Source: Clostridiales bacterium
Lineage (GTDB): Bacteria > Bacillota > Desulfotomaculia > Desulfotomaculales > VENG01
Assembly (NCBI GenBank): GCA_016278505.1
Contig: JADQBQ010000020.1
Span: forward strand, 124,001 to 188,000
Length of the DNA stretch: 64,000 bases
Reading direction: 5' to 3'
The position numbers were made by a program, and so were the translations under genes. Under the pieces are notes generated by a model that saw only the letters and a program-made list of their open reading frames with translations, was not told the DNA's origin and ran no database searches. Positions 7,326 to 43,023 of this stretch are shown here, one piece after another; within the stretch, counting starts at the first letter, position 1, and each line of letters starts with the position of its first letter.

Positions 7326-8564
7326 TTATTGTTTATTTAAAAACCTATAAAATTTATCCGGGATCCAGTTAGACCTGTTTTGGTCAAACATCGCATTTCC
7401 GAATGCCTGGTACACTTCGCGGTATACACTCACAGTGACATCCGCAATCTGCTGCCAGTTGAAGTGCTGTTTAACCTTTTGGTAAGCATGTTTTTCCAGT
7501 TTTTCAGCGAGTCCCGGTTCAAAAATCATCCTCAATATCATGTCGGCCAGCGAATTGGCGTTACCTGGATAGAATTTAAGGCCGTCTACACCATGTAGTA
7601 CGATTTCACTTAAACCACCTGTATCAGATATGATAACCGGAGTACGGGCGGCCATAGCTTCAAGGGCAACGATGCCGAAGGGCTCATATAGACTGGGGAA
7701 GACTGCTATGTCAGACCAACTATACAAGCTGTTGCGCAGACTATCGTCAACATAACCGGTAAAATAAACACTGTGTGTAATATTTAGCTGTGCACACTGG
7801 TGCCTTAAAGCATCTGCATGTGGTCCTTTACCGGCGATGATAAACTTAGTATTAGGGTGCCTGGCCAGTACTTTGGGAGCAGCGTCCAGTAAAACTTGTA
7901 CACCCTTTTCTCTTACCAGCCTTCCCACATAGAAAATTATTTTCTCGTCCGGGGCGGCAAAGTTTTCTCTGGCTGTGGAATGTTGTTTGACTGCGAAGTT
8001 TTCTGGATTAACACCATTGGGAATCGTTCTCAGTTTGTCCTTAGGAACTTGAAAAACGTGTTGCAGTTCACTTTTCATATACTGGCTGCAGCAGATTACC
8101 CGCCACGATTCATAAGTCAACCACCATTCAATCTCACTTATGTGGCGCTGGGTATCATTGTGAAGCCCGTAATTGCGTCCCCACTCTGTGGCATGTATGG
8201 TACAGACAAGCGGTAGGTTGCAGGAATGTTTCAATGCTCTCGCTGTATACGCCACGAGCCAATCGTGGGCATGAAGAATGTGAAATCGGTTATCTCTAAT
8301 CAGAGGGATTGCTTTTTCCAGCATGGCTACATTAAATTGAGCCACCCAGGTAACAAAATCCGGAGATGATATACTATAAGGATTTACCCTATGTACATGT
8401 ACTCTATTAATTTTTTCATATTCTGGGGCACCAGGAGTGCCGCAGGTAAGTACATGAACTTCAAGATTTAAATCGATTAGTGCTCTGGTGAGGTCATAAA
8501 CGTGCTGGGCTAGTCCCCCCACACTTTTGGGGGGATACTCCCAAGAAAGCATCAAAACACGCAT
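7326..8564 (-). CDS. GT4 glycosyltransferase, glycogen-synthase-like
   Basis: Protein of 412 residues with the GT-B fold of family GT4. The N-terminus [19 protein letters not shown] with the glycine-rich acceptor loop is typical of archaeal-type glycogen synthases. HAHDWLV lies near residue 95, and the C-terminal donor-site motif [12 protein letters not shown] holds the E-x7-E pair. It probably transfers glucose from a sugar nucleotide to an alpha-glucan. The open frame extends to 8639, but that part runs through a terminator; ATG at 8564 follows AAAGGAGGC. It lies 20 bases upstream of the nucleotidyltransferase fusion, which could supply the donor. Confidence 0.87.
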
Positions 8565-8602
8565 CGCTGAGCCTCCTTTTATATTTAGCTTGCCCGGGAT
8601 GC

Positions 8603-8633
8603 TAAAAATCCCTACCGGACGCCCGGCAGGGAT
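8603..8633 (-). terminator. Intrinsic terminator after CBM gene
   Basis: On the minus strand ATCCCTGCCGG and CCGGTAGGGAT pair around a short loop and are followed by TTTTTAG. It ends the starch-binding module transcript before the GT4 gene. Confidence 0.8.
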
Positions 8634-8641
8634 CGTCATTT

Positions 8642-9025
8642 TTAATGTTGCTTACCATTGTGAATCTGAAAACTCCAGTTATGGCCGGTATTGTTATCCC
8701 AATTATAAGCATTATCACGGAAACAAAAATTAAACTGAGTAGCATCTTTAATTTCTAATGTTTTTACAAAGCCCCACCCCGTGCGGGACATTTTGCTTTC
8801 CAAAAGATCGTGCCAGTTATTTGATTCGCCGTATCCGGCGTGTAAATGTATTTCCTGCGCTCCATTATTAGGTAAGAGACCGTTATAAAGGATGGTTATT
8901 TCTTCCCCGCTGGTAATTGGTAGCGGGTCAACCACAACTCCTCCCGGATTTTGGGCTTCGTGCATATCGGCTAAACGCATTCCACCTGATTGTCCACGCC
9001 ATCCGTAATTTGATGCGTGACTCAT
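8642..9025 (-). CDS. Free-standing starch-binding module (CBM25/53-like)
   Basis: Protein of 127 residues that is almost entirely one carbohydrate-binding module. After a Gly-rich lead it has ITILYNGLLPNNGAQEIHLH, then HAGYGESNNWHD, a methionine-containing strand, and the C-terminal FRDNAYNWDNNTGHNW. The aromatic residues and WDNN turn are typical of CBM25/CBM53 modules that bind starch or glycogen. There is no signal peptide and no catalytic domain, so it probably acts in the cytoplasm on storage glucan. ATG at 9025 is chosen because the longer GTG start at 9034 lies inside the ribosome binding site GGGAGGTGA. Neighbours in glucan metabolism support the role. Confidence 0.8.
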   Translation of the reverse strand: MSHASNYGWRGQSGGMRLADMHEAQNPGGVVVDPLPITSGEEITILYNGLLPNNGAQEIHLHAGYGESNNWHDLLESKMSRTGWGFVKTLEIKDATQFNFCFRDNAYNWDNNTGHNWSFQIHNGKQH

Positions 9026-37930: not shown

Positions 37931-37990
37931 AAAAAAGCCCAAGCAGGAAGGTTTCACTAAAATTGAGTGAACCTCCCCGCCTGGGCTTTT
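37931..37990 (-). terminator. Switchable terminator in the purE leader
   Basis: On the minus strand AAAAGCCCAGGCGGGGAGG and its partner (37931-37955) form a stem of more than 20 pairs with a few mismatches, then a long T tract. Its 5' arm (37977-37990) is the 3' part of the riboswitch aptamer, so aptamer and terminator exclude each other. Confidence 0.85.
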
Positions 37991-38089
37991 ATCCCGACGG
38001 TGTAGCCTGTACCCCAAAATTAAGGTACGGGCCTGTACCGCTTGGACCGAACCGCCCTTAGTAGGACGTGGAACCCTAGGTACACTTCT
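37977..38089 (-). promoter_or_regulatory. ykkC-family riboswitch, PRPP type (subtype 2b)
   Basis: Minus-strand leader of purE. It has the conserved blocks of ykkC subtype 2 RNAs in order: GTGTACCTAGGGTTCC, GGTCCAAGCGGTACAGGC, a variable hairpin, and CTACACCG followed by GGGATAAAAGCCCAGGCGGG. This family binds guanidine, ppGpp or PRPP depending on subtype. Position before a de novo purine operon points to PRPP, with which the aptamer would form at high PRPP and prevent the terminator, turning the operon on. The ligand assignment is inference; ppGpp cannot be excluded by eye. Confidence 0.85.
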
Positions 38090-38138
38090 TCTCAGGTTAC
38101 AGTCTTTTTGATTTTGCATACTTCACCATAATAAATTC

Positions 38139-38167
38139 ATTCTAGCAGAGTTTAACCATAGGGTCAA
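38139..38167 (-). promoter_or_regulatory. Sigma-A promoter of the pur operon
   Basis: TTGACC (38162-38167) and TAGAAT (38139-38144) with a 17-base spacer on the minus strand. It lies just after the guaA stop codon; the leader to purE would be about 240 bases. Confidence 0.8.
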
Positions 38168-38171
38168 CCTA

Positions 38172-39713
38172 TTACTCCCATTCAATGGTGGAAGGAGGCT
38201 TGGAAGTAATGTCATAAACAACACGGTTAACTTCCTGCAATTGATTTACTATTCTATTTGATATTATTTCCAATACTTCATATGGAATTCGTACCCAATC
38301 AGCAGTCATGCCATCCTTACTTTCTACCGCCCTGATGGCAATGGTATGAGCGTAGGTTCTTTCGTCTCCCATCACTCCCACACTTTTCAGGTTTGGTAAC
38401 ACTGCAAAGGACTGCCATATTTCTCTGTATAAGCCGGCCTTCTTTATTTCTTCCGTTACAATGGCATCAGCTTCTCTAAGGATTTCAAGGTTTTCACCGG
38501 TTATTTCGCCTAGTATTCTAATGGCTAGGCCAGGCCCAGGAAATGGCTGACGCCACACAATCTCATCCGGGAGGCCCAACTCTGACCCCACTCTTCGCAC
38601 CTCGTCTTTAAACAGCCAGCGCAGGGGCTCAACTAACTGTAGTCTCATGTCTTCCGGCAGACCACCCACATTGTGATGTGATTTGATCACTGAGGCTGTA
38701 GCAGTACCGCTTTCCACCACGTCCGGGTACAGTGTGCCTTGAACGAGGAAGTCTATCGTTCCCAGCTTTCCCGCTTCCTCTTCAAATACATTGATAAACT
38801 CATTACCAATAATTTTTCTTTTTTGTTCGGGGTCCGTGATGCCGGAGAGTTTACTGAGGAATCGTTCCCGCGCATCAACATGGATAAGATTTATCTTAAA
38901 TACATCTCTAAATGTTCTTATTACTTTTTCCCCTTCACCCTTGCGCAACAACCCGTGGTCAACAAAAATGCAAGTAAGCTGCTCCCCAATAGCTTTATGA
39001 ACTAAGGCCGCGGCAACAGAGGAGTCAACCCCGCCACTTAAAGCGCAAATAACTTGACCTTGTCCTACTTGTTTTGTTACTTCGTCCTCTGCATGCTCAA
39101 TAAAAGAGCCTGTGGTCCAAGAGGCGCCGCATCCGCAAACTTCATACAGGAAATATTTTAATAGATCCTGCCCCTTGGGCGTGTGGATCACCTCCGGGTG
39201 AAACTGAACTGCATAAAGGCCCCGGGATATGTCCGCCATAGCGGCAACCGGTGCCTGCTCAGTCCTGGCTATTATTTCAAATCCGGGCGGGGGTGCATCT
39301 ACCCTGTCCCCGTGGCTCATCCAACACTGCTCGTACTCTTCCATGCAGCATAAAAGGCCTTCCCTGTTTACTACCTCCAGGCGGGTTTTACCGTACTCCC
39401 TACGGGCTGAGGCAGAAGTTACACCTTCCAATTGGTGACTCATCAATTGCATACCGTAACATATACCTAAGATAGGTATCCCCATTTTGTAAATTGCCGG
39501 ATCCACTGTGGGAACACCGGGCTGGTAAACACTGGATGGCCCGCCGGAAAAAATAATGCCCCGCGGCCTTTTACTTGCAAGGTCTGCCAACGGAGTATTA
39601 TAAGGTAGCATCTCGCAAAATACATTGCATTCTCTTATCCGGCGAGCAATGAGGTGGCTGTACTGCCCGCCAAAATCCAACACTATTATAAGTTCCTGTT
39701 CCGGAACGGACAT
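38172..39713 (-). CDS. guaA: GMP synthase (glutamine-hydrolysing)
   Basis: XMP to GMP; 513 residues. N-terminal glutaminase with the Cys in [11 protein letters not shown] near residue 84 and the His-Glu in [12 protein letters not shown] near 172; ATP pyrophosphatase P-loop [11 protein letters not shown] near 229; C-terminal dimerisation domain ending [17 protein letters not shown]. The ATG overlaps the hpt stop codon (TAATG), so translation is coupled. No terminator separates it from the pur promoter. Confidence 0.98.
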
Positions 39714-40264
39714 TATTCTTCCCCCTGTTTTTGGTATATCTCAGGCCTCAGGACAAGTATATCCTTAAGGTTTCTGTATTTCTCATTATAATCTAAACCA
39801 TAACCAACAACAAATTCGTCAGGAATAGTGAAGCCATTGTAATTTACCGTGACTTCGGCCTGCCGCCGTTCGGGCTTATCCAATAAGGTACAGGTTCTCA
39901 AGCTGGCAGGTTCCCTGGTTTGGAGATTTTCCAGCAGGTACTTAAGAGTAAGCCCCGTATCTACAATGTCTTCCACCAACAGAACATGCCGACCTTCAAT
40001 ACTTTGCTCTAAATCCTTTAAAATTCTTACCACACCCGAAGATTTGTTGGCGCTTCCGTAACTGGATACCGCCATAAAATCAAATTCTACCGGAATATTA
40101 ACTGAACGTACCAAGTCGGCCATAAAAATCATAGCACCTTTTAAAATACCTACCATTAAGAGTTCTTTATTTGCGTAATCAGTGGAAATGGTTTGGCCCA
40201 GCTGTAAAACCTTGGCTGTTATTTCTTCTTCCGTAAGTAATATTTTTTCTGCGTCTGATCGCAT
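39713..40264 (-). CDS. hpt: Hypoxanthine phosphoribosyltransferase
   Basis: Purine salvage from hypoxanthine or guanine with PRPP; 183 residues. The PRPP-binding loop is [15 protein letters not shown] near residue 95; [18 protein letters not shown] and [16 protein letters not shown] are typical. It leads a two-gene operon with guaA behind a strong promoter and a structured leader. Confidence 0.95.
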
Positions 40265-40280
40265 TGTAACCCTCCCGGTT

Positions 40281-40414
40281 TAAGCTAGAGCTTATCTTCG
40301 CACAGCCTGTAAGACCCTGAAGTCGGAGATTAACAGGTTGTAGGCTGCGAAATAAGTGCGACTATGGTTCAGATGGGGTTACGTGCACCCGAAGGGTGAA
40401 ACCCCACCTGAACC
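40281..40414 (-). promoter_or_regulatory. Structured 5' leader of hpt-guaA, family unknown
   Basis: Three hairpins lie in the transcribed leader. The first pairs 40400-40414 with 40366-40380 (15 pairs including one G-U) and contains an inner CACCC-GGGTG hairpin. The second pairs 40342-40351 with 40297-40308 with a two-base bulge. The third is TAAGCT-AG-AGCTTA at 40281-40294. No T tract follows, so it is not a simple terminator. It does not match a guanine aptamer, T-box or ykkC RNA. Confidence 0.5.
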
Positions 40415-40443
40415 AAGTCTTCTTTAACTCAAAAATCTGGATT

Positions 40444-40472
40444 ATTATAACAAGGCGGGGGTTGCATGTCAA
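40444..40472 (-). promoter_or_regulatory. Consensus sigma-A promoter of hpt-guaA
   Basis: TTGACA (40467-40472) and TATAAT (40444-40449) with a 17-base spacer on the minus strand: both hexamers are perfect. The -35 lies directly after the stop codon of the upstream minus-strand gene. Confidence 0.9.
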
Positions 40473-40476
40473 TAAT

Positions 40477-41190
40477 CTAGTCAGGAAGGGTCAATTCATC
40501 CGGTTGGGGTGGAGATATTTTTATTTGTTTATTATAATCCCATAATTCTATGCCAATTTTCATTAGATCTTGTTCCCCTTGAAGTCCTTTGGCCTCTATT
40601 ATGGCCTTACGTATTAATTTACGATTGGGATCAATCCATACCTGGTAGGAAAAGTTACTGAAACGTGTAAGTAAAAATTGGTTATTAAGGTTAGGTTGTA
40701 GTTCCAACAAAGCTAATTTCTCTTCGCCTAAATTTTTTATCCCCTGGTATGTAATCACCGGGATATCTTTAAAATTAAAGTTTTCCAAAGGATTTAATTC
40801 TATAAATAAATCTGATTCAATCATTTTATTTCCCGTCACGGCAAACCATTTTCCGGTAGAGGATTCTTTGAAATACGTTTTATCATCTATACTAATAAGT
40901 TCGAATTCCGTGTCCTGCAAAGTGCCTTGAATATAGATGCGTCCGGGTGTCCTCTTTCCTTTAACCGTTGAAGCCTGGTTTTCTCTGCCTAGTTCAGTAT
41001 TGATTTGATAACGAAAACTGTCCGCGCTGATGGTGTTTTCTAAAGAAGAGTAAAAGAGTTCTTCCGGATTAATTTTTGATTGCTGCCAGTATTGGTATCC
41101 TTTAACGATGCCGAGAATACTGATGATTAAAACAGTAATAACTAGTAAACTTACTTTCTTGTTTAAGATCAACCAACGAGTTTTTGACAC
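40477..41190 (-). CDS. Membrane-anchored LolA/LppX-like protein
   Basis: Protein of 237 residues. Residues 13-33 form one hydrophobic helix (LLVITVLIISILGIVKG) with positive residues before it, a signal anchor without a lipobox cysteine. The rest is a beta-rich extracytoplasmic domain with regularly spaced aromatic residues, resembling the lipoprotein-sorting/LppX fold (for example SFRYQINTELGREN, TYFKESSTGKWFAVTG, YQVWIDPNRKLIRKA). Function is not known. It is a single gene upstream of the hpt promoter and divergent from the MazG gene. Confidence 0.7.
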   Translation of the reverse strand: MSKTRWLILNKKVSLLVITVLIISILGIVKGYQYWQQSKINPEELFYSSLENTISADSFRYQINTELGRENQASTVKGKRTPGRIYIQGTLQDTEFELISIDDKTYFKESSTGKWFAVTGNKMIESDLFIELNPLENFNFKDIPVITYQGIKNLGEEKLALLELQPNLNNQFLLTRFSNFSYQVWIDPNRKLIRKAIIEAKGLQGEQDLMKIGIELWDYNKQIKISPPQPDELTLPD

Positions 41191-41340
41191 ATTTTTTCAC
41201 CCCTTATCAGCCGGTTAAGACATTATACTGCTGACGGTGCATAAATATGCTTGTTCCATTACGCAGACTGTTAAGGCGTACTAAAATATGATAAAATTAA
41301 TCTGCTTCTCCGCATTACCATTTACATAGGCGAGGTAACG

Positions 41341-41667
41341 ATGATGAAAATACAAGAGATGCAGCAAGAAGTACACCAGTGGATTGACCAATTTGAAGAA
41401 GGATACTGGCATCCCCTCTCCATGCTGGCCCGGTTAACAGAGGAAGTGGGTGAACTGGCTAGGGAAGTCAACCACAGATTCGGTGAAAAGCCCAAAAAAG
41501 CAGGAGAACCGGAAGGGGATTTAGCCCTGGAATTGGCGGATATACTGTTCGTTGTCATTTGTTACGCCAATTCTCAACATATTGATCTGGAAGAAGCCTT
41601 CCGCCGTATGATGCAAAAATACAGAGCAAGAGATGCACAGCGTTGGACTAAAAAGAAAGAGTTTTAA
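41341..41667 (+). CDS. MazG-type nucleotide pyrophosphohydrolase (YpjD-like)
   Basis: Protein of 108 residues with the all-alpha NTP pyrophosphohydrolase fold. The metal-binding pattern E-x-x-E then E-x-x-D is visible as LTEEVGELAREVN near residue 35 and ALELADILFVVICYAN near 66. It probably hydrolyses non-canonical or surplus nucleotides to monophosphates. Two ATG codons occur in tandem; the first, after GAGGTAACG, is used. It lies 18 bases before the DUF1015 gene. Confidence 0.85.
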   Translation: MMKIQEMQQEVHQWIDQFEEGYWHPLSMLARLTEEVGELAREVNHRFGEKPKKAGEPEGDLALELADILFVVICYANSQHIDLEEAFRRMMQKYRARDAQRWTKKKEF

Positions 41668-41685
41668 TAAGATGGGAGAGATACT

Positions 41686-43023
41686 ATGGCTACCATTGTT
41701 CCTTTTCAGGGAATTCGGTTTAATGAACAGACAGATGCACTGAATAAGTTAGTAACACCACCCTATGATGTTATTGACGAGGAAAGCCAGGATGCCTTTT
41801 ACCAGTCCAGCCCGTATAATATCATTCGCTTGGAATATGGAAAAAAATATAGCAATGACAGTCAGAGTTCAAACAGGTACACACGGGCTGCGGAATTTTT
41901 CGGTAAATGGCGTAAACAAAATGTATTGGTCAAGGATGAGGAGCCCTCACTTTACCTTTACCAGCAGGAGTTTGAAGTTAACAGTGAAAAGATAGTACGT
42001 ACCGGATTTGTTTGCGGAGTAAAGCTGGAGCCATATGAAAATGGAGTTGTACTACCACATGAAGAAACAATGCCCAAGCACAAGGCTGATCGTTTGGAGT
42101 TAATGCGTGCCTGCAAGGCTAATTTTAGCCCTGTATTTGGGCTTTTTACTGACCGTGAAAGACTTGTTGATAAGCTTTTATTGGAGACAGCCCAGGGATG
42201 TCAGCCGGATGTTGAATTTACAGATGGGGATAACCAGGCTCATCGTATGTGGGTCATCTCTGATCCCGTAACCATTGCCAAAATACAGGATCTCATGGGT
42301 GAGCACAAAGTTTTTATTGCTGACGGGCATCACCGTTATGAAACAGCCCTGGCCTACAGGGATGAACGAAGAAATTCAGATGCAAATGCTACGGGCATTA
42401 AACCCTATGATTACGTAATGATGACGCTGGTAAACTTATACGACCCCGGTTTGACAATCCTGCCCACACACAGGTTGGTTAAGCAGGTGGACAACACGGA
42501 ACGTTTTTTATCCCAGTTAGAAGGCCAATTCTCGGTGGAAAACATTGATTTTGATCAGCATTACGGCTCACCGGGTAAAATTGAAAGTTTATTAAAAGAC
42601 CGGGCGTGTTTAGATGAAAGTGAAGGGACAAAACAAAGACATGTTTTTGTAGTTTACAACGGACAACATTGCTTGCGATTAGTGACTTTAAAAGATGATC
42701 AAAAGCTTCAGGCCATGATGCCGGCGGGACATTCAGATGCATGGCACCGGCTCGATGTTTCCATACTGCAAAATCTGGTGCTGGAAAAATACCTGGGCAT
42801 AGGACGGGAGGAAAGGGCATCAGGTGAATACTTAAAATATACACGGGATGGGAATGAGGTCTTTCGTGATGTGGACAATGGCAATTTCGACTTGGGTATC
42901 TTTATGAATCCCACCTTGATGGAAGAAGTTATCCAGGTGGCCAGCGGAGGAGAAAAAATGCCGCAGAAATCAACTTTCTTTTTCCCCAAGCTAATTACGG
43001 GGCTTGTAATCAACGAATTGTAA
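41686..43023 (+). CDS. DUF1015 family protein
   Basis: Protein of 445 residues belonging to DUF1015. It opens with ATIVPFQGIRF and VTPPYDVIDEES, and has the family's central IADGHHRYETALAYRDE near residue 211 and a C-terminal PKSTFFFPKLITGLV-like end (KSTFFFPKLITGLVIN). The biochemical role in bacteria is not established. It ends two bases before a perfect palindrome. Confidence 0.87.
   Translation: MATIVPFQGIRFNEQTDALNKLVTPPYDVIDEESQDAFYQSSPYNIIRLEYGKKYSNDSQSSNRYTRAAEFFGKWRKQNVLVKDEEPSLYLYQQEFEVNSEKIVRTGFVCGVKLEPYENGVVLPHEETMPKHKADRLELMRACKANFSPVFGLFTDRERLVDKLLLETAQGCQPDVEFTDGDNQAHRMWVISDPVTIAKIQDLMGEHKVFIADGHHRYETALAYRDERRNSDANATGIKPYDYVMMTLVNLYDPGLTILPTHRLVKQVDNTERFLSQLEGQFSVENIDFDQHYGSPGKIESLLKDRACLDESEGTKQRHVFVVYNGQHCLRLVTLKDDQKLQAMMPAGHSDAWHRLDVSILQNLVLEKYLGIGREERASGEYLKYTRDGNEVFRDVDNGNFDLGIFMNPTLMEEVIQVASGGEKMPQKSTFFFPKLITGLVINEL

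Follow-up and report, generated by a model that had tools for sequence, protein, structure and literature searches.

The hpt gene in the analyzed window (the whole stretch of 64,000 nucleotides) is preceded by a long and strongly folded leader, which raises the question of whether this structure is a regulatory RNA of hpt-guaA or a sequence of another origin. The gene, encoding a protein of 183 aa, is located at 39713..40264 on the minus strand and has homologues in 39 of 40 genomes; guaA (38172-39713, minus strand) lies 3' of it. The promoter consists of a -35 hexamer TTGACA (40467..40472, minus strand), conserved in relatives, and a -10 hexamer TATAAT (40444..40449, minus strand), followed by the discriminator AATCCAGATTTTT, also common to relatives (aa.CCaGATTTT). 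The -10 box ends 179 nt before the hpt ATG, and about 170 nt of this interval are transcribed. The ribosome binding site GGGAGGG, assigned from the sequence, is found at 40270..40276 (minus strand), outside the repeat described below.

An earlier, sequence-only reading of this locus proposed an exact TTGACA-17-TATAAT promoter, a long structured transcribed leader with a 15-pair hairpin, no terminator-like T tract and no resemblance to known purine aptamers. Each of these descriptions holds. The promoter at 40472-40444 (minus strand) is the sole 12/12 match within 38000-43000. The first hairpin of the leader, GGTTCAGGTGGGGTT / AACCCCATCTGAACC, has by eye 15 pairs, including one G-U pair in the sense strand. 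The predicted fold of the leader has an energy of -66.2 kcal/mol, compared with -47.5 +/- 4.1 for shuffled sequences (z -4.58), and none of 200 shuffles was as good. The minus strand of the leader showed no T-tract terminator. No Rfam family reached its gathering score there, and the best sub-threshold hits were chance-like (E 0.07 to 8). The 6S RNA and the purine, PRPP and ppGpp aptamers were among the families that stayed below the gathering cut-off in the window, in the leader searched at a permissive E-value and in 8 further loci, most of them with other copies of the repeat.

Between guaA and purE, the Rfam model Guanidine-I (ykkC, RF00442) matched window positions 37976-38090 (minus strand) with 66.5 bits, just over the cut-off of 63. 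For this ykkC-class RNA located before purE, a PRPP or ppGpp variant is more likely than a guanidine sensor.

Leaders of hpt in related genomes

Regions upstream of hpt were compared in 30 genomes, including the genome under study, with up to 2 mismatches allowed in the promoter. The promoter was found in 22 of the 30 loci; the scan gave none in the other 8, where at least two of the regions (L161 and L166) were misplaced. Within the 22 promoter-bearing genomes the promoter is strongly conserved, and the discriminator aa.CCaGATTTT is common to many of them. In 20 of these 22 genomes, the -10 box is separated from the hpt start by 31-78 nt. Long leaders were found only in the genome under study (179 nt) and in G020 (228 nt), and each of them holds a copy of the repeat.

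The G020 leader (L176, ~2060-2250) contains a reversed copy with a nested unit, and this genome belongs to a different family of the order. The G020 copy is an independent insertion. The two hpt-leader copies have opposite orientations, forward in the genome under study and reversed in G020, which argues against a strand-specific regulatory RNA.

Since 20 of the 22 leaders are short and keep the promoter, the structure is not conserved at orthologous hpt leaders. The suggestion that the leader belongs to hpt is therefore not supported: the hairpins are missing in the relatives, where the promoter is retained, an outcome that the sequence-only reading had itself named as grounds for refutation. 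Removal of 132 bp from the leader gives 47 nt, inside the normal range of the relatives. The predicted empty site at hpt would read ..TTTGAGTT|AAGCTCT.., with a leader of about 47 nt. For the hpt locus itself, this presumed insertion rests on comparison with more distant relatives rather than with a close strain.

A dispersed repeat with a conserved fold

The folded part of the hpt leader has sharp borders (40425..40294) that recur across the same genome. It corresponds to a 132-bp copy of a dispersed structured repeat, subfamily A, with the ends AAAGAAGACTT...GCGAAGAT (40294..40425, minus strand), identified by its borders and by other copies and matched by covariance model R1 with 82.8 bits (E 2.5e-17). 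According to the fold and the covariance model, domain 1 (40360..40419, minus strand) is GACTT-hairpin-ATAGTC with the extended loop variant TTTCACCCTTCGGGTGCACGTAA, and domain 2 (40294..40352, minus strand) is TTTCG...CGAAGAT around a second, partly degenerate hairpin. This domain 2 has diverged, with several pairs lost. The hpt leader very probably holds a mobile DNA repeat, short and non-coding, that landed in the 5' untranslated region between the ribosome binding site and a conserved promoter of ancestral origin. Copies of this repeat are dispersed and have fixed ends, empty sites are restored at other loci without duplication, the target is (T/C)AAT|NAA, and the single-strand fold of two hairpins is conserved.

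A BLAST search of the same genome with the hpt leader gave 22 matches with common ends. The end patterns were found there 17 times for the left end and 17 times for the right end, compared with 0 for reversed control patterns. Two left and two right ends have no good partner; these are truncated or divergent copies. Among 100 genomes of the order, DNA matches were found in 18 and covariance-model matches in 20, both counts including the genome under study and the latter including two weak cases (G043 and G053). Genomes of different families carry copies with 97-99% identity to a single consensus, which suggests that the repeat has moved recently between lineages. In G099, a genome that is probably that of Desulfotruncus arcticus DSM 17038, the left end occurs 128 times, against 1 match for the control pattern. 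Other carriers are Peptococcaceae BRH_c8a (G095), Desulfotomaculum sp. BL5_bin.2 (G090) and Desulfotruncus alcoholivorax (G045). No match to the repeat was found in phages, plasmids or viral contigs, the last being scanned with one exact 23-base end.

The copies range in size from ~45 bp, with the ends fused, through ~121 bp to ~308 bp when nested units are present. In the ~45-bp copies, the ends were apparently fused via deletion between short direct repeats. At one filled site, BRH_c8a and BL5_bin.2 have matching flanks and differing interiors (45 vs. 132 bp); hence, interiors change after insertion. The nested small units, TTGGGGACAT(T/A)CCT..AGGTGTGTCCCC, recur inside the hairpin loops of the repeat (L183-L210, for example L189 603-846, plus strand; also L013, L014 and L015 in the genome under study) and are sometimes nested within one another (L197, L205). 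One candidate for a long autonomous copy was L103, where the left end runs into other sequence; the nearby ORFs, judged from their translations, look like ordinary cellular genes, and L103 was taken as a truncated copy. Additionally, a second dispersed repeat, met via one flank of L186, is present in BRH_c8a in dozens of ~100-bp copies (e.g., C20:154177-154281 and C14:46778-46879).

For the analysis of the fold, 15 copies of subfamilies A, B and C were aligned. All of them have a common fold of two domains. The first combines an outer helix, containing a CTTG/CTTAG internal loop, with a long hairpin; the second is another hairpin, which in subfamily A is closed by TTCG..CGAA pairs. Among subfamilies with different stems, both sides were changed in 10 of 35 pairs with the same fold kept, and 98.7% of the cells are paired, compared with 35-50% for slid controls. 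The covariation score exceeded those of all 500 shuffles; the count of pairs changed on both sides, taken alone, was equalled by 85 of 500 shuffles, the independent events being subfamilies and not sequences. The covariance model built from these copies, which matches the hpt copy, was made without subfamily D and nevertheless finds D at 55 and 41 bits. The two hairpin domains are seen in subfamilies A, B, C and D and in most of the divergent copies. More divergent copies, by eye, retain an outer helix built from different bases (AAG/CTT, AAGT/ACTT, AACA/TGTT and AAAT/ATTT). The CTTG/CTTAG loop is not universal, being replaced by paired bases in L316 and L332.

In the folded strand, G.T cells outnumber A.C cells by 59 to 5 in subfamily A and by 66 to 6 in subfamily B (25 to 11 without consensus G.T pairs). 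From this excess, the strand of importance is probably the folded one, whether in the form of RNA or of single-stranded DNA. A check for covariation in hpt leaders had been proposed by the sequence-only reading; covariation is indeed present, but it lies across scattered copies of the repeat and not among hpt leaders. Since it spans copies in unrelated places, it shows selection on the repeat rather than on hpt control.

Insertion sites and possible means of movement

Half of the 18 joined flanks (nine, making up the first 2340 of 4680 bases) were used to look for empty sites, copies of BRH_c8a being compared with sister genomes. Eight of the nine aligned through the junction, six of them cleanly (L183, L184, L186, L187, L189 and L191) with 79-90% identity. 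The empty sites read ..AAT|AAA.. or near (..AAT|NAA..), with nothing gained or lost and no target duplication.

A flank logo was built from the 110 copies in which both ends could be identified and the flank extended over 60 bp or more. On the left side the flank reads (T/C)AAT, with T at -1 in 99% of the copies, A at -2 in 89%, and A in 61% and T or C in 86% at the next two positions outward; the right flank is NAA, with A at +2 in 96% and at +3 in 82%. The left flank is other than AT in 13 of the 110 copies, and in 13 of these 13 the last two bases of the element are AT. Therefore, this AT belongs to the element and does not stem from duplicated target sequence.

Copies adjoin many unrelated genes in both orientations, and coding is mostly on the same strand for 46 of the 110. 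Many copies are located just before start codons (15-60 nt) or in stop codons, which are restored by the first bases of the element. According to simple ORF calls in an 89-copy set, mostly from D. arcticus, 10 of 89 copies lie inside ORFs, compared with 887 of 1410 candidate target sites.

Three copies have nearly the same left flank as one another, ending with TATCCGGCTAAT, and nearly the same right flank, beginning with CAAGCCGGAGGTATA: L206 3381 (minus strand) and L210 737 (plus strand) (G086), and L094 2773 (plus strand) in D. arcticus. These copies, from two genera, may stem from a single insertion carried within a larger segment that is shared or mobile.

A GC-skew proxy, confounded with gene direction (r 0.90), was positive in 42 of 110 copies and, within the 89-copy set, in 20 of 63 for subfamily B and 14 of 26 for subfamily A. 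Thus, the folded strand is on the C-rich side in 43 of 63 subfamily B copies, mostly from D. arcticus, with no bias in subfamily A there (14 of 26). Insertion of the folded strand into the lagging-strand template would give a bias opposite to that of subfamily B. By this proxy, however, the bias is weak.

Elements of 45-308 bp are too short for a transposase gene, and no tnpA or tnpB was seen inside the copies. In the mechanism proposed here, a transposase acting in trans would recognise the folded strand and make two cuts, one following ...AAT in the left flank and the other following ...GAT, a similar sequence, at the right end. The single-stranded element would then be pasted in, as for IS200/IS605-derived palindrome-associated transposable elements (PATEs). 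The 3' end of the repeat resembles its left target (GAT vs. AAT), and in IS605 the 3' end likewise resembles the target. IS605-type insertion requires no restriction of the right flank, whereas the right flank of the repeat is restricted (NAA). At hpt, the copy would only lengthen the leader from ~47 to 179 nt, and a change in translation or mRNA lifetime, if any, would be a side effect.

We slightly favor a Y1/HUH enzyme as the mover; this assignment is tentative, and the mobile-repeat reading is firm. No full ends of subfamilies A, B, C or D were found near 50 sampled Y1-gene loci (30 from 77 Y1 matches and 20 further regions, with D included in a second run and the nested unit also searched). 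Short matches were found at four Y1 loci: hairpin-core matches of 22-24 nt to subfamily B (and D) at three, and one of 25 nt between two Y1 genes of the genome under study. No copy stood beside any Y1 gene examined, and no Y1 gene linked to the repeat was found at the sampled loci. Y1 genes occur in 84 of the 100 genomes, a frequency at which their presence carries no diagnostic weight. In the genome under study, L285 (C5:85300-95000) contains two 96% identical Y1 (RAYT-type) genes, at 1135-2035 and 8013-8925 on the reverse strand. Each gene is flanked by GGGGTCAGGCTTGAATAATT on one side and the reverse complement of this sequence on the other, and so is apparently a mobile transposase unit of its own.

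Several other explanations can be weighed against a mobile DNA repeat. A cis-regulatory RNA specific to hpt-guaA, such as a new riboswitch or a protein-binding leader sensing purines, PRPP or ppGpp, would agree with the strong fold in the transcribed strand, the excess of G.T over A.C and the real covariation. However, it is absent in 20 of the 22 leaders with a promoter found and reversed in G020, the same sequence adjoins numerous genes of unrelated kinds in either orientation (with coding mostly on the same strand for 46 of the 110 copies), and other copies are shortened to 45-50 bp; such an RNA is very improbable. It is unlikely that the copy, though mobile in origin, has been co-opted and now tunes hpt mRNA stability or translation. 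The hpt copy has lost several pairs in domain 2, the opposite orientation in G020 argues against a shared function, and positions in 5' UTRs are ordinary for a family rarely inserted in coding regions (10/89 vs. 887/1410 candidate sites). On the other side, the promoter and the ribosome binding site are intact around the copy, two independent hpt-leader insertions occurred among 30 genomes, including the one under study, and many family copies lie 15-60 nt before start codons. A local effect of the copy on hpt expression is possible.

Spread as a structured RNA, via an RNA intermediate (retro-insertion) or an RNA-guided system instead of single-stranded DNA, has a slim chance of being correct: neither a poly-A tail nor a target duplication is present, orientation is not tied to transcription, and the anatomy matches a known DNA class, even though the G.T asymmetry and the compensatory changes fit RNA and single-stranded DNA equally well as the folded molecule and no linked DNA transposase was seen at the 50 sampled Y1 loci. 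A further alternative has a low probability as well: the copies would be REP/REPIN-like repeats on which the long RAYT-type Y1 enzymes act, frames of ~185-390 aa for such enzymes being present in 9 of 9 genomes examined. The long Y1 genes whose flanks were read have other ends, e.g., GGGGTCAGGCTTG..CAAGCCTGACCCC, and the two domains of the repeat differ and so are not an inverted REP pair. Beyond the mobile DNA repeat preferred here, a broader proposal is put forward as a tentative possibility: Desulfotomaculum-like Clostridia may harbor a whole superfamily of structured mobile repeats with two domains. This superfamily would have at least four covarying subfamilies, a mover that is possibly not Y1 and possibly acts via RNA, a double-sided AAT|NAA target and frequent positions in 5' UTRs, where it would add ready-made hairpins to transcripts.

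Comparison with known mobile elements

For the hpt locus, the present analysis removes a false riboswitch candidate, the good fold being explained by the inserted repeat. As a caution, a leader that covaries and is highly structured may turn out to be a mobile element. Being abundant in G099 and having clear ends, a target, empty sites and a covariance model, the repeat family can serve as a test bed for the movement of transposase-free elements within this group of bacteria.

The ends of the element, AAAGAAGACTT.. and ..GCGAAGAT / ..AACGAGAT, read directly, are not reverse complements, i.e., there are no terminal inverted repeats. The PATEs of Haloquadratum walsbyi likewise lack terminal inverted repeats and target duplications, have palindromes close to either end and are too small to code (PMC3119063). 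Core deletions of PATEs leave ~50-bp forms, and smaller repeats, there SMR-A, occur inside the palindromes (PMC3119063). The TTGGGGACAT..GTGTCCCC units nested in the hairpin loops of the repeat resemble SMR-A in this position but are shorter, ~30-65 bp vs. ~110 bp for SMR-A (PMC3119063). In contrast to the archaeal PATEs, the repeat is bacterial, being found in Desulfotomaculum-like Clostridia; no IS605-type relative with matching ends was found near the 50 sampled Y1-gene loci; domain 1 has an outer helix and, in most subfamilies, the CTTG/CTTAG internal loop; and both flanks are restricted (AAT|NAA) (PMC3119063).

A PATE-like ends-only element of the IS200/IS605 family is described for Halanaerobium hydrogeniformans (PMC7290912). 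The repeat shares with IS200/IS605 hairpins near both ends, the lack of inverted repeats and of duplication, and insertion 3' of a short fixed sequence; it differs in that no tnpA/tnpB was seen in copies, no Y1 gene adjoined a copy among those examined, and the strand bias of subfamily B is opposite (PMC7290912). No description of such repeats in these genera was found in the literature searched. By its anatomy, the repeat apparently represents a new, undescribed family of a known kind, that of the PATEs.
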